Source: Grifola frondosa
Taxonomy: Eukaryota; Basidiomycota; Agaricomycetes; Polyporales; Grifolaceae
DNA length: 15,923 nt
Reading direction: 5' to 3'
Assembly (NCBI GenBank): GCA_001683735.1
Contig: LUGG01000070.1
Coordinates: forward strand, 1 to 15,923
The notes under the pieces were generated by a model that saw only the letters and a list, made by a program, of their open reading frames with translations, had not been told where the DNA came from and searched no databases. Numbering within the stretch: position 1 is the stretch's first letter; each line of letters begins with the position of its first letter. Of this stretch, positions 1-15,923 are shown piece by piece. Both the position numbers and the translations under genes were made by a program.

Positions 1-939
1 TTTGTGATAATAAACGACCCGCTAATTTAACATTTATTCCAGTTTAAAAAACTCGATGGATTAGAAAATTTATAATTATAAATTCTATTTTTAATATTTT
101 CAATATTAGCAGAATCAAATAACGTTTTAATAATAAATCCAAAAGAACGTCTCGATTTAGTGCTAATAAATCCTAAAACATTAGCTAAAATATTACTATC
201 GTAATAAGGATGATTTAATCGAACTAAATCTAGTACTACAGGTTTTTTAAAATATTTACTTAAATTAGCACATAAAAACTGTAAATCTGTTTTATTTCGC
301 CGTAGGACAACTAATTTTTTATTTTTATCAGCTTTATTTTTAACTAAAAGTAAAATAAATGTATAACAAACTTTTTTATTTGTAACATAAAAAACAGGTT
401 TACTAATTAACCAAACATTTTTAAAATGAATATTCTAGAATAGAATGAAAATTTAAATATAAAAATTTAGTACTATTATTAAAGTTATAAATAATATTTT
501 TGAGAATTAGCTATTTCCAAATTAAATTTAGAAAAAGATTTTAAGTAATTTAATATTAAAGCATTAAAAGTTATTCCTTCATTTGTAAGAGTAAATTTAT
601 TATTATTGTTTATATTACTTTTTTTTTTGTTTTTGTCATAAGTTAACATATCTATTCTATCAAAATATTTTTTTTTAAATTTAAATTAGATATATTTTGT
701 ATATTATTTTGATTATTTTGTTCCATATCTGATATAGATAATGTTTCTTTTTTCGAATTTAATATTATTATATTATTATTAAATTTTGATGATAATAATT
801 CTATATATTGGATATATTTAAAAAAAGTTATTTTTTGACTATTTAAAGGTTTGTTATTTAAATTTAATTTATTATCCTTATTTAAGGAAATATTTTTTTT
901 TGAATTTTGTATTTTCATTTTTATGTTGGTTGTGTTCAT
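1..939 (-). pseudogene. rps3: rps3, mitochondrial small-subunit ribosomal protein S3, 3'-partial and frame-broken
   Basis: This encodes ribosomal protein S3 of the mitoribosomal small subunit. The gene starts at the ATG at 939 and leaves the window on the left. The N-terminal part (939 to about 677) is an Asn/Lys-rich low-complexity stretch typical of fungal mitochondrial S3. Further on, the frame reads YFDRIDMLTYD, then LEIANSQKYY, then a clean stretch from about 425 to 60 with NVWLISKPVFYVTNKK, PVVLDLVRLNHPYYDSN and STKSRRSFGFIIK. At the left edge NVKLAGRLLSQ matches the conserved C-terminal S3 core. These pieces lie in different frames. Breaks fall near 668-676 (a run of nine A on the coding strand), about 485, about 428 and 40-58. 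Either the gene has decayed, the sequence has errors here, or ribosomes shift frame. The family assignment is firm; the functional state is not. Confidence 0.8.
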
Positions 940-1348
940 GATTATTAATTTATATATTTATATATTTTATATTTTTTTTATTTTTACTTTTCATAACGAA
1001 AGGCTAAATAATTTTTTTTTAATTTTTTATTTTATTATTTTGCTACTTAACAATCCACTATATTTAATAATATACATACGTTTTATTTTCCTATAAATAA
1101 TATGGTGTTTAATATAAAGGATACTTATTTTATATAAAATTATTAAGTTAAAACAGTTAATGAGAACGAGTAGATACATAGTATCAAAGAAAAAATCCAA
1201 TTAAACAATTTTTTTTAAGAATTAAAAAAAATATCTATTATTTAAATGAATATTCTTTATTAACTTATTCTTTTAAAATAAAGAACCGTTGGAGCCAAGC
1301 ATAACACCGCGCCCTATTCCCGGTACCCCGTAAAAAGAAAATAAAAAA

Positions 1349-1364
1349 GCTGGAAACCTCTAAT
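1349..1364 (+). other. Group I intron core-like motif in the spacer, opposite strand
   Basis: The 16 bases GCTGGAAACCTCTAAT are identical to the P4-region motif of cox2 intron 3, which lies on the minus strand at 9225-9210. Here the motif is on the plus strand. I could not find the matching P7 elements downstream, so this may be an intron fragment rather than a whole intron. Confidence 0.4.
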
Positions 1365-1414
1365 CTTATAAGACAATAAAAATGTAAGTTTGGCACACTC
1401 TTATTAATCCAAGG

Positions 1415-1452
1415 CCCCTCCCGTAACGCTAGCCCTAAAGGGCAGGGAGGGG
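1415..1452 (+). repeat. GC-rich double-hairpin element, spacer copy
   Basis: The outer arms CCCCTCCC (1415-1422) and GGGAGGGG (1445-1452) are perfectly complementary. They enclose an inner hairpin, GCCCTAAAGGGC (1432-1443). The core CCCGTAACGCTA...GCCCTAAAGGGC recurs in cox2 introns 4 and 5. This architecture resembles the double-hairpin elements described from some fungal mitochondrial genomes. Confidence 0.75.
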
Positions 1453-1459
1453 TACCCAG

Positions 1460-1494
1460 CGCCCTAAAGGGACTCTCTCCCTAAGGGCAGGGGA
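1460..1494 (+). repeat. Second GC-rich hairpin cluster next to the double-hairpin element
   Basis: CCCTAAAGGG and a related CCCTAAGGG palindrome lie in tandem directly after the 1415-1452 element, separated by a CT-rich stretch. It looks like a diverged or rearranged copy of the same GC-rich family. Confidence 0.5.
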
Positions 1495-2511
1495 AACATA
1501 AAAAACTTTAAAGAACCCGAAGTACGATAATTCTGTTTGAAAATTTGATGGGTAAAGATCAAAATTTAATCCCAAAACAAAATAGATTCATCATTATTCT
1601 TAATATCTCTAAATTTATACATTAATTATATAACAATTTTTTTATTCAAGAAAATTTAATTACTATATTTTAATTTTTACATAATAAATTTAAAAAATAA
1701 TCTACAATTTTTAGGTTAATTTCACATTTTTTTTAAGTTTAGTTTTAAGATTAAAATATTTATCTATATGTAATCTTAATAATACTAGAGATGAATAATA
1801 ATGTTATCATAATACACTAAATAGACTAGATTATTAAAAAAAAATAGAGAATACCTACTCTATTTTAAGATAATAATATTTCATTATTAATGAATAACTT
1901 ATAAGTTATATTATTAGGTTTATCTTCTATCCACCAAAGTATATTTTGTGATTTTTAATTTAAATAATGATTATCATCAAATATTATTATATATATATAT
2001 ATTTTATAAAGATTAGATTATATTATAGTGTATTTATTTGTCATCATATTTTAATCTCCGTATATACAGTATTAAGTATATATAGGTATTTGCATGATTG
2101 TATGAACATTAATTACCAAAATTTAATGAACATAAATAGTTGAATATACAACCATTAAAATATATTTATGACCAATATATGGGTTAATTAATAGTAAAAG
2201 CTGGTTTATCCGCATAATTGCGTTTTTATTTTATTTATAAATTATTAATGCCTTTATGATAATCCATACATTTATAATACAGTTTATAGGAATACGAGTT
2301 CTTTTTTCTAACATTCGTATAATAAGAGATATAATTTAAAGCATATTCTGAATGTAATAAATTTTTGTTAAACGATTGGATGCGAGTCCACCCTGATCAT
2401 TATAAGCTTTAGATAACAAGTATTAAAAATAGTACAAATCCAATTTTGAATTTTATATATTTTAAGTTAAGGGTTGCTTCTCTGGCTTTTAAAAATTTGT
2501 TCCCAACTGCC

Positions 2512-2548
2512 GGCCGCCCACCAGCATTTTAGAGAGTGGAGGGTGGGG
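2512..2548 (+). repeat. GC-rich hairpin downstream of cox2
   Basis: A GC island of the form CCGCCCACC, a loop of about 20 bases, then GGGTGGGG stands out from the AT-rich background 3' of cox2. The arms pair over six or more bases. It could be a GC cluster or an RNA-processing hairpin; only the pairing is visible. Confidence 0.4.
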
Positions 2549-2656
2549 ATAAAAAAAAAATATAATATATATAGTAATAAAAATAAATTTAATATTAACA
2601 AAATATATTGTACATATAAAAATGTTTAAACTATTAAATTTATTTTAAACTATAGA

Positions 2657-2721
2657 TTAAGCAGCATCTATCCATGCTAAATAATCTTGTACTGAAACTG
2701 CTTCTATAGCAATTGGCATGA
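2657..2721 (-). CDS. cox2: cox2 exon 8
   Basis: This encodes the last base pair of codon F231, then [20 protein letters not shown] and TAA. It supplies the CuA ligand M232 and the C-terminus. Intron 7 ends in G at 2722. Confidence 0.9.
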
Positions 2722-5700
2722 CTAAATTTTTATTCTTACTAAGGGGTACTTTAAAGATTTAGTTTGGTGTATTTTACATCTCCATCTGTTGATTGTTCTA
2801 TCACTAACTCCTAACTCTCTTTACCGTATCAAAAACTACTTCTATTTTTGTATTTACATCGACTAAAATGACTGATCTACCTTTTCTAAGACCTAAATGT
2901 GTGCGTAGACATTTTTCTTCTTGTTCTTCAGAAATTTTTCAATTGTCCCAGTTTTAATTTTTCTATGTAATTTTATAGTAGCTTGATTAAAAGATCTATT
3001 AAGAAATGATAGTGATAAGTCTTGATTAGATTCCTCATCTCTAATATAACCTTTAGCCCCTAGTTAACATAAAAACTACTGTTAAGCATCGGGTGAATTG
3101 CATCCATATATACTTGTTCTGCTATTGTTAATTAATATAAAGTTAAATAAAAAAGAGAATCATACTCATCTTTAATTAAAACATGGTTAGGGTTTAACTT
3201 AGCAAATAATTCTATATGATTAGGTGTAATATCAATTATATATAATGTAAATGCACTCCATGTATTTTTAACAACATTGCTGTAAAACTTGTTATGTCTA
3301 GATGTTTTAGTAAAGGCATTGTTTTTTGTTGTTTATCGTGTAAACAAATTTACCCCTTAAGGGACTTTGATGAGGGACTTTGAATAGGGCAAGGGATTTT
3401 CAAGAGATGATCCTAAATATGAATCTTTACCGTGACAAAATTGGTATATACCAGGCAAACCTTTATAGTTACGAAGAGAATTCCATTCTATCCCTTAAGG
3501 GCGAGGTAAAATAAATTTTGCTATAGGTGTAATGACATCATATTTAGAAGCTATTTCATCTAAAGAAAGTGATAAAACAGACTTAATGGTCATACGATGT
3601 TAAAAATGGATTTTTGCATTAACATAAATATAATTCTAACTTAGCTTTAAAATTAGGAATTGCTGGATTAGAGTGTAATCTATTTCCTTTAAAGTCTATA
3701 GGCAATAAACTCATTAAAGAATAATATATTAGACTATCAACATTGGGCTTGACTTTACCTTAGTATTAAAATAATTATCTTTTCTTTCGAAAAGGGAAGG
3801 ACTATTTCTTTAACTAAATCAAATTAGTCATATAACGTTTAGTCTCTGAGGCTTATAATTTTTAATTGCCTGCTAGTTGCCTAACTAAGAATTAAGGGTT
3901 CTAGCATATAGTAATATTTTTCATGGACCCATGCTTAAACTAATCCATGGTAAACACCACAACGAAAAATTGTTATTTTTAGCTTTCGTCTTCGTCATAA
4001 ATTATAGGATGATACCTTTGTAATCCTTTAAATAATAAAATTTGTATGATTCCATCCCTTTCCCTAATGGGTCCCTAATGGGTCCCTAATGGGTACCTAA
4101 TGGGTCCCTAATGGGTGGGCGACGTTGTACCTTTTATTAAACATTGTTGAATAGGTGAATTTCCGCCTTGAGTCTTAGATCTAGACCGAAATATCTGATC
4201 AATTCATTAAAAGACGGAAAAAGTAAAGAAGTACCAGTAACTAGGTCTTCTATTACTACTTTTTTTTTTAATGAGATAAGGGGTTTTATCTCCACGGCTC
4301 TTCCTGTAAGTACAGCCTTAACAAACATTTTATTAATATGTCTTAATTAAGAAACTCGATAATAATTACCTAATCCGCACTGAGTAGCTGCTTCAACAAC
4401 ATTAAATTCTTTATCGAATGCAACAATTTTATTCAACAGTAAAGAATTATAGTCAATACCTTAAAAGTCAGGTCGTAAAAACTGACTAGTTAAGCGGTCG
4501 ACCTTCTTCAAAAAACCTACACTCTATATTTACTCATATGTGTAATTATTTAATTCAGAAAATTCATTAGAGTTTCGATTTTTTTCTTTACTAAGTTAGA
4601 TATTCCTTAGCTAAAAATATTATGTCCATGGTTAAATGAAGTAAATTCGTAAATTATTCCCTCCCTTGTAATTGCTTTAAATGGTCGAGATAATTCTAAA
4701 TTTTATCGAATAAAGTTAACATAATAATTAGGTGTAACATAAGTAGGTTGCCAAAAAATTTTTTTATTAGCCTAAGTTTTTTACTTCTAGATAGAGAAGT
4801 CGGTTTGAAATAAAATTAACTGTTCGATAGTGGTTCATTAATCGTATAGTAAAATTTGTAGTAGCACCAATGTAAAACTTTTTAGTTTTAGGGCTAAATA
4901 TAGTATAAACACCGGCTTTATCTTATATTAAATAAGTAATACTGTTACAATGTGAAATAGGTAAAGAAATAAAATTGGAATGAGAGATAAATTTATTAGC
5001 TTAAAAATAATCGATTGAATAACCAGTATGACCTTTGAAGAAGAAGGTGATCACAATTGTTTTTAATAAAAAATTTAAGTGGAGAATTATCAGGTAAATA
5101 ACTATACATATAATTAAGCATAGTTCTTGAAAATACTTTTTTTAATAGTTTCAGTTTCAGTCCAAGGAATAAAATTTTATTTTTTATTAGGGATTATACT
5201 AGATATTTTTCTGATATTTATAATATGGTTAATACAAATGCACTAAAATAAGAAAACTTTTTTTAATAGTTTTCCAATAAATTACTTTATTGACTAGACT
5301 ATGTCTTCAACTAATATTTAAAATAGTTGTTGGGCACTCGTGTCAGGATTATTGTTGTACTACTCACCCGTTAGTCGTTGAACGTTCCTACTTCTATAAA
5401 TGATTAGTACCGAAGTAGGCTTCGCTGCAAGTTTTCTTAATATATTTAACTATACATCAGGCGACTATGCGCAAGGACAGTTAATCTTTATAATTATAAT
5501 AAGAGGTTCTTGCAATTTACCCAATTTTGTCGACTGACTCTCATCAGAAGGAAACCTGTGTTAGATTTCAGAGCATTGCTTTTCTATATAAATAATTATT
5601 GATGATTAATAATCGTTAGATTTTTTGTTATATGTTCAGTAAAGTCTTTTTCATATATAAACTTAAATCTGTTTTATAAGGTTTACCTGTTGTAATATAA

Positions 5701-8700
5701 TTTTTAATTGGTGAATATGATACCCTTTAAATTTAAATGTTCTAATAAGAGTTTAACTTTATTAAATCGTGTAGCAGTATTTAATTATAAATTTATAAGA
5801 TAAATAGGTTTATTTAATAGGATTCTCCCTTTACCAGTTTTTTAAGAATTTACTATATAAAGGATGTGTAACCAAATAAACAGATTCTCCGTCTATATTT
5901 ATTAATCGTTCTTTATTTAAATAATTATATACACCATGGCCAAGTGGAAATTGATTTGAAACCTAATTTATTCTATATTTGTTTAGGGTTAGAATAATAA
6001 GAATGTACAGTTTTTTCTCTTTTGCTGTACCTAAAGTTTTTGAAGACTTTCTCTATTAATTGCTCTCATTTTTTTTAAGTCTGACTAACCTGAGCCAACT
6101 TGCAGGTAATAGATTATTTATTTATAATGAAGAAGTTAAACTAACTGAAATATTATATTTTTTACTATATACAAGATGATCAGTATTTATATATCTAGTT
6201 AAAGTAGTTCTACTTATACCTAATCCTATACTAGCACTATTAATAGAAGTAAAGCTACTTATAAATTCACCTTTACTATTGTGAACTAATATATCTACTT
6301 TATATCTTGATAAGTCATTAGTTCTTTCTCTAGGAATGAAAACCTAGTTTTACTAATTTAAGATAATTTGATTCCGGTTGATAATAATAGATTAGTGCTT
6401 GTTCAAGCATTCTAATTTAAAATGTTATAAACAATTCAAAAATGGAACTTAAATGTGAATCTAATTTAAATTTAGGATTCTCTTCAATAAAATTATTTAA
6501 ATCATGAGGAGTAGTTTTAATTATACCTCCTTCTGGGTACAAAGTCCCCCCCTGCCCTTTAGGGCTAGCGTTACGGGTGGGGCAGTATAATTATCCCAAC
6601 CTCCATTTAAAATAATATGGTTGTAGAATAATCCCCCATTTTTTTTCACCTTTTCTTAAATGATCTTTCAATGAAGCTTGATGACTCTTGACCATGTAGT
6701 TATATTGCTGAGCCTATATTTATCTGTTGATTTTTCCATTACATTAAACTGGTATCATCTACAAATTTAATTTCATCAAGACTATTTCCAACAGTCATAT
6801 TCATTGGTCTATTATAAACAGGTATAGAAGTTGTAGAATTATTTACTTTAGATGAAATTAGCAAATGATTACAATGAGTTAAAAGATAGTTTTTAATTTT
6901 TAATTCTACTTAATTATTTAAAGAATCAATAGATTCTTGTAATATTAATCTAGCATTAGAAATTTCTTTAGTTTCATGCCAAGTTATGAAACTAGTCTTA
7001 CTATTATTACTGTACATTCTTTTTTTCTTTTCTGGTTATAATTCATAATTTATATATAAAAATATAAATCTGCTAGACGGCGATTTATTCAAATTAAATT
7101 ATTTATACAGAAAAGGATTATTTCTTATATATATATATGTATTATATATTTATAAATATATCATCACGTATAATCTCTGAGGATTTAAAATAAACCTGCT
7201 AATAAACCTTATATTATAAATTTATTACTATATTGAATAGTATTTATAATATACCTTACCATAAATTAAATAAAAATGAAGGTTTTAACCGCAATACTCA
7301 AATTTAATATTAAACACAAGGTATGTTGTTTTAGCATATATGATGTTGATTAGTATATTAAATACTAAAGGCCATTAAAACCATAGAAAGTTCCAGTTCT
7401 TTCAGCTAAAATAGATGTTTGATTTAATCGCGTTTTAATATTAATATTATAATATGTAACTAGTTATATTACCTTTGTAGTCAGCCGCATAATAAAACTA
7501 ATATCGTTTTTGATGGGTAAAGTTTAGTAGGATTCATATATCGTTTAACTATTGATGTAGCACCAACAGAATTTATTCTTAAATATTTTAACATTAGTTT
7601 ACTGTGTCATAATGTACTGCTGTCAGGGTATCTGATAATAGCTTTAGTATTTCGAGGAGGTGTTCTACGTAAAAAAATTCTCTTTATATAAAGGTTAATA
7701 ACAAAATAAACTAAATCCTTATTCATCTAATCTATAATTGTCTGAAAATTCTTGAGGTAATTTGTTTGTAAGAAAGGTTTATCCAATTTAAGTTTTATAT
7801 TACAAATTATATGCAATAAGTATGATTTTAATGGATCTTCCTCCACCCCTACCCCTGTTAGGGCACCCGTAACGCTACGCCCTAAAGGGCAGGGAGGGGT
7901 AGTAAACTATCTGCCATTCTATTACCTTAAAACATCTCTCCTGCCCGATGGCCAGCTTATTTAGCATAAGCTAAATTTACCAAATCTTTACCCAACACTA
8001 CTAATAACTGGTATTGAAAATAACTTAATGAAGTATAATTAATACTAAAAAAGGATTTGTCTTTAATTATTATTTAGTAAAATTTATTTTTACCAAATAG
8101 TAAATAGATTATGTAAAGTCTCTGAGGAATGTCTATGCCTGTCCTGCAAATTATAAAATAGTTTAATAGAACACTACAATTATGTTTTAAGATACATATC
8201 TAATAATTATAATTATTAATACCTTGCATATAATAATCTTACCTGGCCAATTTTACCAGGTACTGCATCAATTTTAATTCCTAGTGAAGGTACTGCAAAT
8301 GAATGAATAACATCAGCCAAGTATTTATTATTAATATTTATTTATAAATAAAGTTTATACCACATAGAAGGTAAAATATACGTTATTACTAAATTTCTTA
8401 ATTTAGGCATACTCTAAATATAAATTCCAGATCTTTATTTTTAATACCTTGAATAGTAGAATTAATGTTATATTTAATTAAGCCATAGGAGTTAATAAAT
8501 TATAGTTATTATCAGGAACTACTTTACCCTTATCTTTATAAAAAAAAATTATATTGTTAATTAAAACAAGGTAAGGATCTTGTACTAAATTTTAAACCAT
8601 AATAAATATTTCCTTTTATCCGACTTTATAATTCAGGAGGCAAGCTTAAATTTAACTGTATATGGAATATTAGAACAATAATGAGAAAGAACCATAAATG

Positions 8701-11700
8701 AATAAATAACATAATAAGCTCGAGTAATAGATTGTTTAAATTTAAATCTTCTCTTGCACTGCGTAAGCGCAGGGCAAGGGGTGTTAGAATTTAAACTGTA
8801 TTTTTCTACGTCTGATAATAATTACTACCATTGAATAAGAATCTGGAGGTAAATAAATTAATTTTTGTAAACTTACTGAAAATCTAGTTGAAGCTAAATT
8901 TAAACCATAAAGAACTAAATTTGTACAATTACTAAATTCAAATTTATTAATTTTAGGTAGTTTATTTACATTTGTAGTTTTAGTTCGTTTAATAATTTTA
9001 TGAAATCCTTTATATCAGGATTTAATCAATGAATTTGTTCCTATCATAATCTTAATGGATATATTAATAATATACTTGGACTATATCTTAGTCTAAATAG
9101 ACTTCTTGCGTATAATCTCTGAGGATCAAGAATATTATTATCCTATTGGTTTCCTGCTGATTACTAATTGTTTCATATTAATCATTTTTACCATTTAGGT
9201 AGATTAATTATTAGAGGTTTCCAGCATATAACAAGATTCGAATTATATTAAACGATATTGTTTAATATTAATAAGGGCAAGATGGTTTTACCAGTTACTA
9301 TTAATCTAATATGAGTATCAGTAGGTATAATAACTTTATTATCTACATCTAATAATCTGAATTGACCTAATTCTAACGAATCTTCGGGGCAACAATTCAA
9401 TTTTAAATAAATTTATACAATATCTGTAATTTAAAAATAAGTAGCTAGCCTTCGGATAAAAAGGTTTTACAAAATAGTAACCTAACTCTTTTTTAGAGTT
9501 TAAGGTTTTTTTAAGGAGTGAGTTAGATAGCCAAAGACGAGAGAGATAAATATCTTAATTTTAAGATTTAGGTGAATTTCTAAAATAATATTTACCTTGA
9601 CATAATTTACCGTTTCTAATTGCAACACTAATAGTACTGTGTGGTATACCTAGATTATTTGAAGCTTATTTAATAGTATTAAATGGAATTCCATCATTAA
9701 TCATTTCCCAATTACTATTATAAGCATAAACTTTTTTATATCTTGGTTTAACCTCAATTTTACCTAAGGAAACATTGAGCTATCAGTACTTGCAAGATAT
9801 CTAGCACTTATAGTTTTACCAGTATCTACCAAACTAAGTAGATGATGTCCACTAACTCCTATAGCATTAGCAGCAACTGTACCACTTTCAAAAGGACAAC
9901 CGTTATTTAAAATAACACCTTCTTTGCATCGAATAAATAAATAATTCTTCTATGACCTATTTTTTTAATATCCTTTACTAATTTTAGTTGTTCGGATGAT
10001 AATCTTAAATAGGTTATCTTTAGTGTTATCATTTAATGAAGGTACTATTGAAGAAAGTAATTTATTTGAAATAAAAATTATATTACCACTACCTTCTGCT
10101 AAGGCGCTCTCTAGTTTTGATGTAAGTGAGTGCGTAGTGTTAATATTAACACCCGAGTGTAAACTAGTATTTGATAACTCTGAATAAAAACTCTTAAGAG
10201 TCCCAGTATATATATAATAAGTTCCAAAGTCTGTTTTAATCGGACCTAAATCAATATTCAATTTAGTTAAAGCTTCTTGTATAGATATAAAGATTTGCAT
10301 CTCTAGTTTGGATGTTTACTGCCCAGACTAATATACTATTACCTCCTTTCCACTCTGGATGTTTTATTACATAAGAGTTACCTGATTCACTTTTTACTAC
10401 TATCCCTGTATTAGCTTTATCTGATATTGCATTTTTAAATGCAGCATTAGCTAATTTACGGTTACCGCTTAATTTAATTTTAGCTTTTTTAGGATATAAA
10501 AATTAAAAGGTACTAGCTAAAGACCGAAAAACTAAAAATTATTAGTTAGTAAAAAAATAAATATATATATGCTTTATTTAAAGAGGTTAATTCTCTAATA
10601 GACAGGTTAAAGTTAGATTTTACTTTTTGTTTAACAAAGCTTCTATAATTCCAATTAGCATTATCATAGTTAATTAAATATTTTACTTTATGACCCAACT
10701 TATTAACTAATATACCTCTTAAATTTCCAATATAAACAGATAAACGAAACTTAGAATGTAGACCCATATATCTGACAGCTGAAAGTAAAGATGGTGCTTT
10801 AAATAGTCATTTCAAATGAGAGTCATAAATGTTGATAGGTTTTCCTAATACAAATACTTTAAACGGTTTTTTAAAAGCATTAGGATCAATTTTAGTGTAA
10901 CTGTGTGTTACAATTACATTGTCAACTGTTCCACCATTTATAGTTGGTTTAAAGTTATCTATCAAATTTTGCTCTAATACACGAATAGGATAATAGGTTA
11001 ATAAATATAATAACACACCTTCTCCGTGCAGCAATTGATATTTAGGGTTTTTAATCGGAAAAGTTCCATTAAGTTTGGTATTTTATGAATAATTGAAAAT
11101 AATAATGTTTTTTGTTTATTTAATTGACCTCTATGTAAGGGACCTACACCTACTTTAGATTTAGATTTAAATTTTCTCTTATGACTGGTTAAACGACCAT
11201 AAAAATTACCAGTAGAACCTATGTACATTTCACCGTCACTAGTTTGAAGAAATCTATAAGTCCCACCAGTAGTAGAGGAAAATTAGAGGTTTTTACATTT
11301 AACCAAGGTTGGATATTAGAACTATAATTTATAGTTAATTTACCATTTGAATAATTAGCTAACAACTCAAACCCGATATCAATATTTTTTAAAATAAAAT
11401 CTCTAACTATTGAAGATTCTGGTAAATTATTAAGTGTTGTAATTAAGTTATCTCGTGCAGCCAAATGACCACCTCTAACATCTAATTTATTAATTTGACC
11501 TAATGCAACCGAAGCTATTTTGTTATCTAATTTATCTATAATTAATTTTGTAAATTTATTGTAGTTTTCATTTTTAATTTGAGAATATTGTATATTTAAT
11601 TTATTCGTTACATGAAAAATAGAACTTAAGCTACATTCATCTTAAAATTTAATTTTTTATTTAAATAACTTAAAGCTTTGGTTAGGTTTAACTATTTTAA

Positions 11701-13972
11701 TTTTTAAGCATACTATATTTTTTGATACTTAGATTTAGATTACCTCGCAGTCCTGAAGATAAAGGCTAGTTTTCTTCGGGATGCTAAACTAATTTAAAAA
11801 TGAATGTCGGACTATGTCTTAATTATATCCTTTTTTAATCTGAAATTAATAATAGAGTTAAAAAAAAAAATAATTTCTAAAGTGTAGTCTCTGAGGTTAT
11901 TTTACCAGCAAATTAACTTTTTAAAATTAATGATTTTTAGAATAATATATATCTACATTTACCTTAAAGTTGTTTTTGTTTATATTTAGAATTCACTTTT
12001 TATGATTTTAAGTTTAATATTTACTGGTAACAGCAATTAAAACTATGCACTGGATCCTTATAGCGTATTATAAATTTTAACCTAGGGCACTCGGGCCTTT
12101 AGGTAAATAACTATTAAGATATCAGAATTAAGTGGACCGTTAGATCATATAAGAATCAAATTCAATTGATTCACCACTTTCATTAATATAATCGCTATAT
12201 TCATAAGACCAATACCATTGATGCAAGATTAAAATAATATTTAATCTATTTCGACTGTACATTAAGCAATATTATTTTTATTTCATAAAAGATTAAATAA
12301 AAATGTGGCTCCAATAAATGGCTTGCGCATCCACCCACTAAAAAAAGTGGAAATATCACCCACCAGTGACCCAGTCTGTTGCAATAAAAGGCAAAAATTA
12401 GAAACCCTCTACTGACAGTCTTGTATTATAACCGGTATCAATTTTATAATATTTTAACTGTTTTCACTAGTGTCGCCAAAAGATAAGCAACGATGTTTCT
12501 TTTGTAAACTTATCTTTAAAGAATTCTGTCGAACTCTTAGAGAAACATTAGAACTCACGACTATCGTATATATGTGTGTAGGTTAAAAGAACTTTGTTAA
12601 ACAGAATTATATTAATATTAGTTCTCAAAATAAATTATTTGTTTGCGCTTGCGCATCTATTAAACCCAATTTATAATACATAGTTTTTGTAAATGAGGTA
12701 GTACTAACTCTCTTAATTTACTTATAGAATCTTTTTTAATATAGATAGAATATTTATTAGGTAAATATATATTTTGTATGGTACAATTTAAGTTAAATTT
12801 TGTTATTAATATACTTTGTAAATATTCTACTTCTTTAATTATAAAACTATTACAAGCTATTCTTACTCCACTTTGTAACCAACCACCATCATAACTTATC
12901 CAAATAGCTAAGGTTAAGGGAGTTATAAAATTATCTATATTAAGCGGAACTATTTTCTTTCCATTTTTATAAAAAGATTTATATATCCATAAAAAACTTC
13001 TAAATGTATAAGTATTAAACTCATAACCAGAATATAATTTATCTCTACCTTTAATTGTTCTGTGGTATTTTCTAGGTTCAAGTGTAGTACAATAGCCCCT
13101 AGTTAAAAAGAATTCATATAAGCTAAATAAATATTATTTATGTATTATACTTTGTTTAACCGCAAATCTTACTCCTTCGCCACTTCGATGATTCGCATAA
13201 CCATCTCCTAGCATTAGATCTACTATTACAGAAATTACATCAATATTATGAGGCCCAATACGATTAATAGCTCTACACATGCTATGAAACGATCTTTTTC
13301 TGACATCGCCTATTTTATTTTGTATTCCTCTATTTGTAGGTAAATACGATAAATTTAATCTTCCATAGTTATTATTAATTTTATTTTTATTATTAATAAA
13401 TAAAAACATATAACAATTATAAAATTTAAAGAATAGCAAAGTAAGAGATTTGGCACAAATAATTATTTTGGCTGGGTAACCTGCCATTTTGCAGATTTTT
13501 GTAGTTAAAGAAACTAAATCAGATAATTGTTAGTAATAATTTTTTTTATACCATATTTGGCGTCTTTTATTTTATTTAATATATACGATTTTAGGCCATC
13601 TTTAAGAAAACCTACTACTTTAATTGTGATTGTAGGTGAAATTACTTCATCTAGTAAATACAATAGTCTGAATGAAGGGAAAGCGATAGCAATTAAAATT
13701 AAAGCTGGTGTAACTGTCCAAATAAGTTCGATTAATGTACCATGGTTAAGATATTTATGAACGATAGGAGATTTTTTAAAGTTGTAGTAATAGATTATTG
13801 AACCTAATACCCAAAATACTCCTACACAGATAACTATTAAATAAAAAAAAATAGTATTGTGTAATTCTACAATACCAGTTAAAGCTGGTGCTGCACTATC
13901 TTGAAAGCCAATTTGCCAAGGTTGTGGTGCGTCATTAAATATAGTATTAAAAATTGAAATATATTTTAACAT
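2657..13972 (-). CDS. cox2: cox2, cytochrome c oxidase subunit II, eight exons
   Basis: Subunit II of respiratory complex IV in the inner mitochondrial membrane takes electrons from cytochrome c through its CuA centre. Exons: 13972-13610, 12223-12144, 9389-9290, 8317-8255, 7430-7380, 5578-5565, 3962-3943 and 2721-2657. They join to exactly 756 nt (251 codons plus TAA), the usual subunit II length. Residues 1-40 contain [16 protein letters not shown]. Membrane helices lie at about 41-63 and 81-101. The aromatic stretch [12 protein letters not shown] begins at 122. CuA ligands are H186, C221, E223, C225, H229 and M232, in canonical spacing. No frameshift or stop interrupts the exons, even across a run of nine T in exon 1. 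All six Trp codons are TGG. Every junction puts U before the intron and G at its end. The exon 6/7 joint could shift by two bases without changing the protein. Confidence 0.95.
2722..3715 (-). pseudogene. Broken GIY-YIG homing endonuclease in intron 7
   Basis: A GIY-YIG nuclease would nick intronless cox2 to spread the intron. The signature reads [18 protein letters not shown] at about 3450-3395. The region with the catalytic Glu is near [17 protein letters not shown] (about 3130-3075), followed by [33 protein letters not shown] and a C-terminal helix-turn-helix-like [21 protein letters not shown] palindrome interrupts the frame at 3492-3501. A GC-rich insertion of about 45-50 nt follows the YLGSS motif (3353-3400). 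TAA stops occur after LTLY and elsewhere, with frameshifts near 3065, 2950 and 2800. In the last frame the stop TAG (2724-2722) coincides with the intron's terminal G. The 5' limit is approximate. Confidence 0.75.
3353..3395 (+). repeat. GC-rich insertion inside the intron 7 endonuclease
   Basis: This stretch contains CCCCTTAAGGG and a direct repeat, AGGGACTTTGA, at 3360-3370 and 3373-3383. It sits exactly between the YLGSS signature and the VNLFTR segment that normally follows it, so it appears to be an inserted GC cluster. Confidence 0.6.
3943..3962 (-). CDS. cox2: cox2 micro-exon 7 (20 nt)
   Basis: It reads T TGT GGT GTT TAC CAT GGA T, completing I224 and encoding CGVYHG plus the first base of F231. 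CuA ligands C225 and H229 are here. The intron 7 P1 pairing fixes the 3' boundary. The 5' boundary is set by requiring G at the end of intron 6 (3963). Confidence 0.88.
4061..4115 (+). repeat. Five-copy 11-bp tandem palindrome
   Basis: TCCCTAATGGG is repeated five times back to back (4061, 4072, 4083, 4094, 4105), and copy four starts TACC. A partial TGGG follows. Each unit can form a CCC/GGG hairpin. The array lies in intron 6 between the endonuclease stop (4137) and exon 7. Confidence 0.9.
4137..5105 (-). pseudogene. GIY-YIG homing endonuclease in intron 6, several in-frame stops
   Basis: The diagnostic stretch is [20 protein letters not shown] followed by [13 protein letters not shown] at about 4926-4820: a GVY and YIG pair with the conserved Arg. 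Downstream come [53 protein letters not shown] and an open C-terminal block, 4328-4137, ending HLFNNV. That last block contains [19 protein letters not shown], which resembles the modular DNA-binding repeats (NUMOD) of intron endonucleases. Much of the gene keeps one frame but contains TAA codons, for example in DYF-ANKF, YLI-DKAGVY, FIR-NLEL and RVS-LRHI, plus frameshifts near 4800 and 4560. It is probably inactive. The 5' end is approximate. Confidence 0.78.
5565..5578 (-). CDS. cox2: cox2 micro-exon 6 (14 nt)
   Basis: It reads CAA TGC TCT GAA AT, encoding QCSE plus two bases of I224. It carries CuA ligands C221 and E223 (the latter binds through its main-chain carbonyl in known structures). 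Intron 5 ends in G at 5579. The P1 pairing GAAAT/GTTTC supports the 3' end. Confidence 0.88.
6122..7017 (-). pseudogene. Broken GIY-YIG-type endonuclease in intron 5
   Basis: The frame opens at ATG 7017 with [18 protein letters not shown] weak signature around NIGSA is followed by [15 protein letters not shown] and [28 protein letters not shown] segment (about 6410-6370) matches the catalytic-Glu region of GIY-YIG enzymes. A clear modular DNA-binding C-terminus follows: [16 protein letters not shown], then [20 protein letters not shown] and the end at 6122. A GC-rich double hairpin (6546-6582) interrupts the middle, and TAA stops occur after DSLNN and DTSLM. Frameshifts occur near 6700-6600 and 6340. 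The GIY half is too eroded to show the whole motif, so the class rests on the Glu region and the C-terminus. Confidence 0.6.
6546..6582 (-). repeat. GC-rich double-hairpin element inside the intron 5 endonuclease
   Basis: On the minus strand it reads CCCCACCCGTAACGCTAG followed by CCCTAAAGGGCAGGGGGGG. This is the same element as at 1415-1452, in the opposite orientation relative to the window. It sits within the coding remnant and destroys its frame. Confidence 0.8.
7380..7430 (-). CDS. cox2: cox2 exon 5
   Basis: Seventeen whole codons encode [17 protein letters not shown] (residues 203-219). The exon follows the terminal G of intron 4 at 7431 and ends in GGT. Confidence 0.92.
7469..8000 (-). 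pseudogene. Degenerate intron 4 ORF, probably a homing-endonuclease remnant
   Basis: Readable pieces are [25 protein letters not shown] (two TAA codons), [14 protein letters not shown], then after a frameshift [20 protein letters not shown] and [20 protein letters not shown]. The last piece resembles the helix-turn-helix tail of intron-encoded endonucleases. No LAGLIDADG or GIY-YIG core is visible. A GC-rich double hairpin (7843-7899) splits the ORF. Its class is open. Confidence 0.45.
7843..7899 (+). repeat. GC-rich double-hairpin element inside intron 4 ORF
   Basis: It shares CCCGTAACGCTA and CCCTAAAGGGCAGGGAGGGG with the copy at 1415-1452 and carries an extra CCCCTGTTAGGG arm on its left. 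It is in the same window orientation as the spacer copy and opposite to the intron 5 copy. Confidence 0.8.
8255..8317 (-). CDS. cox2: cox2 exon 4
   Basis: Twenty-one codons encode [21 protein letters not shown] (residues 182-202). H186 is the first CuA ligand. Intron 3 ends in G at 8318. Confidence 0.93.
8342..9007 (-). pseudogene. Decayed LAGLIDADG endonuclease in intron 3
   Basis: Recognisable fragments are [77 protein letters not shown] and the C-terminal [20 protein letters not shown], ending at TAA 8342. This is the order found in single-chain LAGLIDADG enzymes. The first LAGLIDADG helix is eroded and a GC hairpin (8753-8778) lies just after it. The second helix after LLTPMA is deleted. 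Several frameshifts separate the pieces. It is not functional. Confidence 0.65.
8753..8778 (+). repeat. GC-rich hairpin in intron 3
   Basis: CTTGC-A-CTGCG (8753-8763) pairs with CGCAG-G-GCAAG (8768-8778) around a TAAG loop, ten pairs with one mismatch. It sits inside the decayed LAGLIDADG gene. Its sequence differs from the CCCTAAAGGG family. Confidence 0.7.
9290..9389 (-). CDS. cox2: cox2 exon 3
   Basis: It completes I148 and encodes [19 protein letters not shown] and then [14 protein letters not shown] (149-181), part of the beta-sheet domain facing the intermembrane space. Flanked by G at 9390 and ends in GGT. Confidence 0.93.
9561..11638 (-). pseudogene. Large broken GIY-YIG homing endonuclease in intron 2
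   Basis: The N-terminal part reads [20 protein letters not shown], then [19 protein letters not shown]. The nuclease follows: [19 protein letters not shown] (about 11273-11217), RLTSHKRKF with the conserved Arg, and [17 protein letters not shown] with the catalytic Glu and Asn (about 10990-10940). A TGA at 10809-10807 could be Trp under code 4 and joins to [20 protein letters not shown]. Beyond 10500 come [20 protein letters not shown] and an unfamiliar segment. The helix-turn-helix-like tail [19 protein letters not shown] ends at TAA 9561. Frames break near 11272, 11075, 10520, 10310, 9960 and 9765, and a TAA replaces a probable Glu in the tail. The 5' end is approximate. Confidence 0.75.
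9965..10300 (-). other. Unfamiliar open segment within the intron 2 endonuclease (111 aa)
   Basis: This is an uninterrupted frame, [17 protein letters not shown]...KISKGY. It includes [35 protein letters not shown] and [18 protein letters not shown]. It continues, after one frameshift, from the [20 protein letters not shown] segment upstream. I do not recognise this as a standard GIY-YIG or NUMOD module. It probably forms part of the target-recognition half of the same broken protein. Confidence 0.4.
12144..12223 (-). CDS. cox2: cox2 exon 2
   Basis: It encodes the aromatic [12 protein letters not shown] motif and [13 protein letters not shown] (residues 122-147), plus two bases of I148. Intron 1 ends in G at 12224. 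Confidence 0.94.
12224..13609 (-). other. cox2 intron 1, group I (1386 nt)
   Basis: The exon end TAGGT pairs with GCCTA inside the intron (about 13592-13596), closing with U-G. The core lies after the endonuclease: GCAACAGACTGGG (about 12383-12371) and TGTACAGTCG (12261-12252) provide the two P7 strands. A CCACT...AGTGG hairpin lies between them. This is a different core type from the other introns, and the gene lies upstream of its core. Confidence 0.82.
12660..13487 (-). pseudogene. LAGLIDADG homing endonuclease in intron 1, one in-frame TAA
   Basis: This two-motif LAGLIDADG endonuclease would cut intronless cox2 at VVG|HQW. From ATG 13487 the frame runs 275 codons to TAA-TAG at 12660. A basic N-terminal region precedes [20 protein letters not shown], the first motif (catalytic Asp in LGDG). 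The second motif is [12 protein letters not shown] (about 12930-12895). The C-terminus contains [20 protein letters not shown] and the usual [19 protein letters not shown]. The length suits the family. The only break is TAA at 13136-13134 in [11 protein letters not shown], where relatives have Glu. It is the freshest of the seven intron genes. The upstream read-through of exon 1 stops at 13514 in another frame, so the gene would need its own start. Confidence 0.85.
13610..13972 (-). CDS. cox2: cox2 exon 1
   Basis: It encodes residues 1-121, ending in ITIKVVG, with both membrane helices. The start ATG at 13972 gives [21 protein letters not shown] nine-T run at 13851-13843 is in frame (IFFY). 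Translation past 13610 reads unrelated intron residues to a stop at 13514. Confidence 0.96.
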
Positions 13973-14501
13973 TATGATTATATTTAGAAAATAAATTTGA
14001 TCTTAGTTTACTGTTTCCTCTTCCCTTCTTTTTTTTTTTCTCTTTGTATAATTAAGAATATGCTCCATAATGGAACATTTTTATTTTTCTTTTCTTTTTT
14101 TGAATAACAAAAAAAGAAAAAAGAGAAAAAGACTAAAAATGGATATTTAATCTTTGATTATTTATTTTTTCTGACCGACTTTATCAACTGAGTTTGCTGT
14201 TTTTGGGTGAGAGTGGCATTAAATGGGTGCTTGCATCCTTATTAATAAAAAGCAGAGAAAATTATTTATAAATGAATGTTAGATTAATATAATATGCTAT
14301 TAACATATAGAGCTCAATACCCTGTAATTTTAAATTACAATTCCAACGTTATTTTCTATAAGATTATATTTAATATCTATTATATTATATATATATTATA
14401 TATATTATATCTTATTAACGATTTTAGGTATCCTAAGGTTCATCTTAAGCAATTCTTTTATTAAGAATTAATTAAACTAATTTAATTAATTTAATAAAAT
14501 C
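13973..14501. other. AT-rich spacer upstream of cox2
   Basis: This is about 530 bases without a gene. It contains T- and CT-rich tracts near 14015-14045, a long A/T hairpin at 14086-14128 and a TA-rich repeat near 14376-14410. No tRNA fold or convincing promoter consensus was found. Confidence 0.6.
14086..14128. repeat. Long A/T inverted repeat upstream of cox2
   Basis: A TTTTTCTTTTCTTTTTTTG arm and a CAAAAAAAGAAAAAAGAG arm flank AATAA and can fold into a stem of about 16 pairs with few mismatches. It lies about 120-155 nt upstream of the cox2 start, in the likely 5' untranslated region of a tRNA-cox2 transcript. Confidence 0.5.
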
Positions 14502-14575
14502 TAAGTAGGGGGGATTCGAACTCCCGATTTTTAATGTGTTAAATTACTGCTTTAACCGTACTAAGCTACCCACTT
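14502..14575 (-). tRNA. trnV: tRNA-Val-like gene, anticodon AAC
   Basis: Acceptor AAGTGGG pairs fully with CCTACTT (one G-U). The D-stem is GCTT/AAGC, and the anticodon stem GTAAT/ATTAA has one mismatch. The anticodon loop TTAACAC gives AAC. The T-loop contains TTCGAA. The gene is nearly identical to the trnV at 15321-15395 in the D, anticodon and T arms, so it is a duplicate. It has one C fewer in the T-stem/acceptor region and an altered anticodon. It may be a pseudogene. Confidence 0.75.
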
Positions 14576-14624
14576 TAATATGAAAATAATTCTATTTAAT
14601 TAAAATGTAATATATATTATATAG

Positions 14625-14697
14625 TGCATCTTAATGGAATTGAACCAATATTTAACAATTTCGAAGACTGCCGCTTTACCTATTAAGCTAAAGATGT
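14625..14697 (-). tRNA. trnR: tRNA-Arg, anticodon UCG
   Basis: Acceptor ACATCTT/AAGATGC has six pairs and an A-C mismatch at position 1-72. The D-stem is GCTT/AAGC and the anticodon stem GCAGT/ATTGT. The loop CTTCGAA gives UCG, reading CGN codons. The T-arm ATTGG-TTCAATT-CCATT has one mismatch. Confidence 0.85.
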
Positions 14698-14871
14698 TTT
14701 AAATTTTGATAAAACTGTCCTTTGGGCTAACTTAAAAAGAGAATGAAAAATTTTTAAATTATTTTATACCTTTCTTCTATATTATAATAGCATCAGGGCT
14801 CTAATCGTTTTGGACAAATGGCTTTATTCATTTTTATGAAAGTTTTAAATTAAAAAAATAAAAAGACATCA

Positions 14872-14954
14872 TACGAGTAAAAGACTTGAACTCTTAAAGA
14901 TATAAAATCATGAACACCTAAGATTCACCCGGCTACCATTTACGGCATACTCGT
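14872..14954 (-). tRNA. trnL: tRNA-Leu, anticodon UAG
   Basis: A perfect seven-pair acceptor, ACGAGTA/TACTCGT. The anticodon stem is TGAAT/GTTCA with loop CTTAGGT (UAG). A long class II variable arm and the T-arm AAGAG-TTCAAGT-CTTTT follow. It reads CUN codons. Confidence 0.92.
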
Positions 14955-15320
14955 TTAATTAAAATAAAATTACTTTACTACAATTTGATATAAAAATTTA
15001 TCTGGTACACCAGGATATTATGGTGTCCAGTCCCAGCAATCCAATTTTTTTAGTGAAGAAAAAAAATAAAATATTTAATATAATTAAAATATAACTTTAT
15101 TTTAATTTCCATGATTTTTATAGTATTATAATATTGATTTTATTATCAACATAAATATAACTAATATTGAGGATATATAAATAATTTTTTTATAAAATAA
15201 ACCTAAAAATCTGTTTGGGTCCCTTTAATTAAAAAACTTTAAGGCCTCAGAATCCAAAGAAAAAAAAAAACAAAAAAAAAACCAATTATATAATAATTAA
15301 ACTAACTTTTTTTGATATGA
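14955..15320. other. Spacer between trnL and trnV
   Basis: About 365 bases of AT-rich DNA with A-runs near 15055-15070 and 15260-15285. The only structured element is the hairpin at 15002-15030. Confidence 0.6.
15002..15030. repeat. Compact hairpin between trnL and trnV
   Basis: CTGG-T-ACACCA pairs with TGGTGTCCAG around an eight-base loop, GGATATTA. The stem has ten pairs and one bulged T. This GC content is unusual for the spacer. It may be an RNA-processing signal or a GC cluster. Confidence 0.6.
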
Positions 15321-15395
15321 TAAGTAGGGGGGGATTCGAACTCCCGATCTTTAATGTGTAAAATTACTGCTTTAACCAGACTAAGCTAACTACCT
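15321..15395 (-). tRNA. trnV: tRNA-Val, anticodon UAC
   Basis: Acceptor AGGTAGT pairs with CCTACTT, with a T-C mismatch at the seventh pair. The D-stem is GCTT/AAGC. The anticodon loop TTTACAC gives UAC, which reads all GUN codons in fungal mitochondria. The T-arm is GGGAG-TTCGAAT-CCCCC with one A-C mismatch. It is probably the original of the two Val copies. Confidence 0.88.
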
Positions 15396-15591
15396 TAACT
15401 TAAAAAAAAAATAATTGATTATTACCGAAAAAAACAAGAAGTACGGTGTCGAGTGAAAGAGTAAGGGGTATAAAATATACATATTAAAATAATATTATTA
15501 ACCTATATAATAAATATTATATAATATAATTTTTGGGTCCTTTTGAATTTTAAGAATAATCATTATACTAAAAATGGGGGTTACAAAATTT

Positions 15592-15923
15592 GTATTATAC
15601 AGCTGCTCGTTCCCGAACAGCTACCTTGCTATGACTTTTGAAATGTTACACAAATGAATTAACTAAAGTAAACTAAACTAACATAGATGTTTGAATTTGA
15701 AACTGACCTGCCAAAACAAATCATTCAAATAAACTTAATTATGTAAAGTATAATTTTCCTCCAGTTTCCTCCTATTTAAGCTTCTTCCCAGCGACAGACA
15801 GTTAGTTCATCACGAATTAAATCTTCACCGTTGCGTAGTGATCAACGATTACTCGAAATTCCTTCTTCATGCCACCGAATTGCAGATGACAATCCGACTA
15901 AAATTTTATATTTTAACTTTTTT
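15592..15923 (-). rRNA. rns: Small-subunit ribosomal RNA, 3' end (partial)
   Basis: On the minus strand, GAATTTCGAGTAATCGTTGATCACTACGCAACGGTGAA matches the conserved decoding-region sequence (written here only in outline: GAGTAATCG, GATCA, CGGTGAA). CTGTCTGTCGC corresponds to the CCGCCCGTC stretch. AGTCATAGCAAGGTAGCTG (15637-15619) corresponds to the universal GTCGTAACAAGGTA before helix 45. A hairpin with GCTGTTCGG and GAGCAGC gives helix 45. The gene continues beyond the right edge. The 3' end is set near 15592 by comparison and could be a few bases off. Confidence 0.9.

Follow-up and report, generated by a model that had tools for sequence, protein, structure and literature searches.

How a cytochrome c oxidase subunit 2 gene (cox2) can be interrupted so often that two pieces of its CuA-site coding sequence are reduced to 14 and 20 nt, and whether these pieces belong to a working gene, is the question raised by the Grifola frondosa DNA analysed here, namely the whole of contig C60 (15,923 bases; the window) in an assembly of 39.06 Mb and 64 contigs. 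The cox2 gene lies on the minus strand, 13972-2657, and comprises eight exons of 363, 80, 100, 63, 51, 14, 20 and 65 nt, which join to a gap-free coding sequence of 756 nt, corresponding to 251 amino acids followed by TAA. Exon 1 (13610..13972, start codon at 13972) was recovered by protein search of the assembly; exon 2 (12144..12223) and exon 3 (9290..9389) by the gene model together with that search; exon 4 (8255..8317) by the COX2 family and the protein search; and exon 5 (7380..7430) by the gene model. These are followed by micro-exon 6 (5565..5578), which encodes Q220, C221, S222, E223 and part of I224, micro-exon 7 (3943..3962), which encodes the end of I224, C225, G226, V227, Y228, H229, G230 and the start of F231, and exon 8 (2657..2721), which runs from the rest of F231 through M232 to the stop TAA; all eight lie on the minus strand. 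The CuA ligands are distributed over exon 4 (H186), exon 6 (C221 and E223), exon 7 (C225 and H229) and exon 8 (M232), and the spliced product agrees with the Cox2 CuA set H...C-x-E-x-C-x3-H-x2-M. The exon coordinates, the eight exons and the gap-free 251 residues given in the preliminary description were all reproduced, on a strand that it had not named, and each ligand was found in the exon to which it had been assigned. Among solved structures, 54 distinct chains are matched by the spliced Cox2, the best of them bearing the name cytochrome c oxidase subunit 2, and the protein is 86–95% identical to the 120 homologues listed out of 7,998 scored, where the organism-named entries among those listed come from Ganoderma, Lentinus, Phlebia radiata, Perenniporia and other Agaricomycetes. 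We read this locus as a functional mitochondrial cox2 with seven introns, two of them demonstrably and five probably group I, gained singly at separate homing sites, and give this reading a probability of roughly 0.93; from the sequence we infer that the introns are spliced in the cell.

The window is represented twice more in the assembly, as contig comparison found window positions 5524-15923 repeated in contig C61 with 99.0% identity and positions 1-6738 repeated in contig C55 with 98.8% identity. C60 differs from C61 in 102 alignment columns, of which 7 are mismatches, and from C55 in 83 columns, of which 10 are mismatches, the rest being indels in both cases; 74 and 49 bases, respectively, are absent from C60, with 21 absent from C61 and 24 from C55. 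C60 is thus an indel-rich duplicate relative to C61 and C55, and we read it as an error-rich long-read contig. Its many indels relative to the copies make fine intron detail unsure, and intron frames read from C60 alone are unreliable. The exons are free of stops and frameshifts despite the indel-rich contig. Exons 1 and 4–8 exhibit zero differences between C60 and the copies, with exon 6 unchanged in both C61 and C55 and exons 7 and 8 unchanged in C55, and the two differences observed between C61 and C60 over exons 1–6 are a base of exon 2 that is missing in C61 and a mismatch in exon 3. At the two ends of the window an rps3-like frame (434-30; Pfam VAR1, E=1.4e-9) and the end of the small-subunit rRNA (15587-15923) were identified, and the resulting order of rps3-like frame, cox2 and small-subunit rRNA agrees with the rnS-cox2-rps3 order of Ganoderma, which is given for 14 of 17 Ganoderma species in PMC13254553. 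The host was taken to be an Agaricomycete and probably one of the Polyporales.

The introns would have reached cox2 one by one, each at its own homing site, with two of the sites placed downstream of a neighbour, by 14 and 20 nt, which would have left micro-exons as the intervening coding pieces. The seven introns are 1386, 2754, 972, 824, 1801, 1602 and 1221 nt long, and their borders are uniform, with T as the last base of each upstream exon and G as the last base of each intron. The Rfam group I model RF00028, applied with a cut-off of 50 bits that is a detection threshold below which absence is unproved, matched intron 6 (3963..5564, minus strand, after CDS nt 671) with 103 bits and intron 7 (2722..3942, minus strand, after CDS nt 691) with 75.9 bits, each over the whole model and both above the cut-off. 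The core of intron 6 lies within 5574-5275, the match starting in exon 6, and that of intron 7 within 3970-3778, the match starting upstream of the end of exon 7. The two introns gave no blastn match to each other at E<=1e-4, and their P7 strands differ in the Rfam alignments, which bears out the earlier proposal that exon 7 is flanked by two independent group I introns.

Guide sequences were sought within 60 nt of each intron's 5' end, with P1 formed on the upstream exon through a T-G wobble and P10, placed before it, on the downstream exon, and the results were compared with 2000 shuffles of single bases. Guide pairing was observed in four introns: intron 4 with a P1 of 8 bp and a P10 of 5 bp (equalled by 0 of 2000 shuffles), intron 7 with 7 and 6 bp (1 of 2000), intron 1 with 5 and 4 bp (4 of 2000), and intron 6 with a modest 5 and 5 bp (63 of 2000). 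The guides of introns 2, 3 and 5 were no better than chance, being equalled by 1083, 865 and 292 of 2000 shuffles, respectively. When the guides were compared across the seven exon ends and starts, those of introns 1, 4, 6 and 7 paired best with their own exons, a fit for which the guide positions had been picked beforehand; near-misses of the good guides included the P10 of intron 7 with exon 7 (5 weak bp, score 8) and the P10 of intron 4 with exon 6 (4 bp, score 9). The guide of intron 2 found better partners than its own exons at the end of exon 7 and at the start of exon 5, that of intron 5 did so at the end of exon 1 and at the start of exon 2, and for intron 3 P1 tied with three other exon ends. 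In introns 1, 4, 6 and 7 a guide near the 5' end would pair through P1 with the last bases of the upstream exon and, directly ahead of that, through P10 with the first bases of the downstream exon. An end of intron 6 just past its core, near 5275, was also considered, and it would be ruled out by the pairing of the intron's guide with exon 7 at position 3962.

On exon 7 the guides occupy 12 of the 20 nt (5 + 7) and leave 8 nt free, and on exon 6 they occupy 7 of the 14 nt (2 weak + 5), without overlap of the helices on either micro-exon, so that the claim of the preliminary description that P1/P10 helices cover almost the whole micro-exon was too strong. Of the two helices on exon 7, the P10 formed by intron 6 would sit at one end and the P1 formed by intron 7 at the other, with 8 nt between them, and introns 6 and 7 could therefore leave in either order; as the guide helices do not overlap, a steric need for a fixed splicing order would not arise. 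Translated models in which exon 6, exon 7 or both were dropped exhibit a shifted frame and the loss of CuA ligands, so accurate splicing of these pieces would be needed for respiration. One alternative holds that introns 5–7 depend on each other, either because the joining of exons 6 and 7 follows a set order or because introns 6 and 7 form a composite with exon 7 inside it. Three introns do lie inside 34 nt of coding sequence, and ordered splicing has been proposed, according to PMC12308204, for adjacent group II introns with a 1-nt exon between them; against this stand the separate guide helices, the fit of introns 6 and 7 to the whole group I model each by itself and the broken frame that follows from skipping, and we consider such dependence unlikely.

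The first five introns are probably group I as well, on the basis of P7-like motifs, guide pairing or both, and here the Rfam model was of less help, as RF00028 gave zero match for introns 1, 2, 4 and 5 and a weak one for intron 3 (20.1 bits against the cut-off of 50). The motif CCTCAGAGAYT, which we take to be a group I P7 strand, has five matches in the window, one each in introns 2, 3, 4, 5 and 7 (0.01 expected), and its partner AAGANAWARTCC was found in introns 2, 3, 5 and 7, with one further copy beyond the gene, at plus-strand position 1187 (0.09 expected), where both expected numbers flatter the patterns because these were written after reading the introns. All on the minus strand, the five introns carry differing combinations of these signals. 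Intron 1 (12224..13609, after CDS nt 363) has a LAGLIDADG_2 frame and the strong guide described above, and neither the P7-like motif nor an Rfam group I match was found in it; intron 2 (9390..12143, after CDS nt 443) has the P7-like pair 11886-11896 and 11809-11820 in addition to a GIY-YIG frame; intron 3 (8318..9289, after CDS nt 543) has the pair 9114-9124 and 9078-9089; intron 4 (7431..8254, after CDS nt 606) has the motif at 8117-8127, its partner not being found, together with its guide; and intron 5 (5579..7379, after CDS nt 657) has the pair 7172-7182 and 7115-7126. Of the seven group I introns announced earlier, introns 6 and 7 are confirmed by Rfam, whereas introns 1–5 stay below its threshold and are probable group I introns by P7-like motifs, guide pairing or both. 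Some of introns 1–5 might alternatively belong to another class, or their boundaries might be off by a few bases, a view suggested by RF00028 giving no match for introns 1, 2, 4 and 5 and by introns 2, 3 and 5 being without a convincing guide. The T...G borders throughout, the motif pairs in introns 2, 3 and 5 with the single motif in intron 4, the strong guides of introns 1 and 4 and the group I introns reported in print for P357 and P651 argue the other way, and this alternative seems less likely still than dependent splicing.

The placement of the micro-exons was assessed from the protein and from the DNA. The stretch YGQCSEICGVYHGFM, which comprises the micro-exon residues and their edges, is identical in 50 of the 120 listed homologues, and the other 70 comprise 65 that carry W for Y only, 3 with other variants and 2 that are off the pattern. 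A degenerate coding pattern followed by the intron-final G found one match in the window for each micro-exon, with shuffle means of 0.01 for exon 6 and 0.00 for exon 7, and the interval from exon 5 to exon 8 (4,658 nt, minus strand) likewise offers one candidate place for each. When the 39-Mb assembly was searched with either the COX2 family or the 251-residue protein, only the best candidates being scored, an intronless cox2, the possibility that the preliminary description had raised, was not recovered; all 5 of the family matches and all 10 of the protein matches are parts of exons located in C60, C61 or C55, and the idea that the genome has an intact cox2 at some other place was rejected within that scope. 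The junction of exon 7 and intron 7 gave 0 matches in viral contigs. That the micro-exons are chance matches and the C-terminus is encoded otherwise, by other exons, in an unspliced pseudogene or from a second copy, gains something from a 249-nt extra copy of part of this region in C55, by which pieces of the region are seen to be duplicated (or misassembled), and is nevertheless very improbable in view of the single candidate place for each micro-exon, the exact match of the residues to homologues, the guides of introns 6 and 7 that point at these very junctions, the lack of any further gene copy in the assembly and exons free of stops and frameshifts in a contig rich in indels.

Insertion sites were named after the nomenclature of PMC7325650, from which our CDS sites differ by a constant shift of 6, and the shifted sites of introns 1–7 are P357, P437, P537, P600, P651, P665 and P685. 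Sites 363, 657 and 691 are spaced by 294 and 34 nt, the same as the published P357, P651 and P685, so that introns 1, 5 and 7 share spacing and phase with cox2P357, cox2P651 and cox2P685. These three are reported as known fungal group I sites (PMC11509744; PMC7325650), with P357 and P651 described in Isaria cicadae (PMC7325650) and in Purpureocillium atypicola (PMC11509744), and P685 in Rhizopus oryzae and Allomyces macrogynus (PMC7325650). Here they are joined by the would-be sites P437, P537, P600 and P665, names that were not found in the main texts searched, where three papers turned up with P651 or P685 only; the comparison with fungal cox2 genes that had been suggested as a check agreed for three sites and left four unmatched by name in the papers. 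P665, the site of intron 6, is possibly a new point, occupancy in relatives having been checked in papers only. The sites agree with the general proposal that homing enzymes may favour codons for invariant residues. A bolder version, in which intron 6 marks an undescribed P665, three introns fall within a 34-nt CuA stretch, and the P10 portion of the guides serves as an address code that brings each micro-exon to its proper partner, perhaps in an ordered manner, is tentative, and we would sooner doubt than accept it.

Seven introns, as the preliminary description remarked, is a high number for cox2, and it is not an exceptional one. Similar or higher numbers occur in Monilinia laxa, Sclerotinia borealis and Ceratocystis huliohia. 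Monilinia laxa and Ceratocystis belong to the Ascomycota, as does S. borealis, unlike the Agaricomycete analysed here. The reported numbers are seven introns, several with GIY-YIG frames, in M. laxa (PMC7424523), six in S. borealis (PMC4162613) and eleven, group II included, in C. huliohia (PMC8208691), and in a table of 16 fungi in PMC7325650, one species being without data, the most cox2 introns is three. Within the Agaricomycetes, the relative Phlebia radiata has a cox2 with the same coding length of 756 bp and 251 aa (PMC4019555) and a Cox2 that is 92% identical over 97%; as described in that paper, it differs in having three introns, compared with seven here, and in a C-terminus that is duplicated, with domains of homing endonucleases. 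Very short mitochondrial exons are likewise reported for Erysiphe necator, where the 6-bp exon 2 of nad4L and the 11-bp exon 12 of cox1 belong to different genes, are shorter still and have been verified by cDNA (PMC8260586), and exons of 3 bp and 1 bp are cited in PMC12308204 and PMC8208691. Other fungi already provide examples of such intron density and of such short exons, and with cox2 genes of seven or more introns and shorter verified exons on record, the present gene is a real but ordinary case. It leaves known intron biology unchanged. It offers a clean natural case of how little coding sequence can separate two group I introns that both depend on exon pairing, with exon 7 giving 5 + 7 nt and having 8 to spare, and it illustrates a risk of misannotation, as cox2 would appear truncated or broken without its 14- and 20-nt pieces.

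Endonuclease frames were observed in several of the introns. Intron 1 has a LAGLIDADG_2 match (window 12714-13232, E=3.5e-36) with one in-frame TAA; intron 2 has a GIY-YIG match (11073-11267, E=2.4e-5); intron 6 has a GIY-YIG piece (4824-4916, E=0.006, and 4.1e-5 when the piece was searched alone); and intron 5 has a NUMOD1 piece just under the cut-off. Introns 3, 4 and 7 were sampled by a single piece each, without a Pfam match, and none of the 63 LAGLIDADG_1 matches falls in C60. The longest open frame in any cox2 intron is 178 aa, a length to be read in the light of the indel-rich contig. Broken intron frames were rejected as proof of decay, as the indels of C60 relative to C61 and C55 can break frames by themselves; the in-frame TAA of intron 1 is present in both C60 and C61, which makes it probably real decay rather than a sequencing error, and it is the only one that argues for real decay.

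Additional features were noted around these sequences. The 249-nt extra copy in C55 (18686-18934, locus L018) is 99% identical to window 5445-5692 and runs from the tail of intron 5 through micro-exon 6 into the head of intron 6. It lies close to a 208-nt copy (99%) of a C59 stretch that by eye looks like large-subunit rRNA, and beside a 264-aa open GIY-YIG frame (C55 17719-18510). Long open frames at C55 1778-4670 and 7212-7835 look by eye like a family B DNA polymerase of mitochondrial-plasmid type. The minus strand of C59 has two stretches that resemble the core of intron 6 (loci L021 and L022; 72% over 148 nt and 61% over 275 nt), suggesting relatives of intron 6 elsewhere in the assembly; an Rfam search of a C59 stretch for a relative of this core was unproductive, and the comparison that gave the two stretches also returned two further weak, AT-rich matches on the other strand. 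GC-rich repeats were observed at window 4060-4120, 1414-1459, 6541-6590 and 7864-7898, and among such repeats a tandem 'tccctaatggg' array was seen by eye inside intron 6, with 'ccctaaagggcaggga' elements related to these in introns 4 and 5 as well as downstream of cox2.
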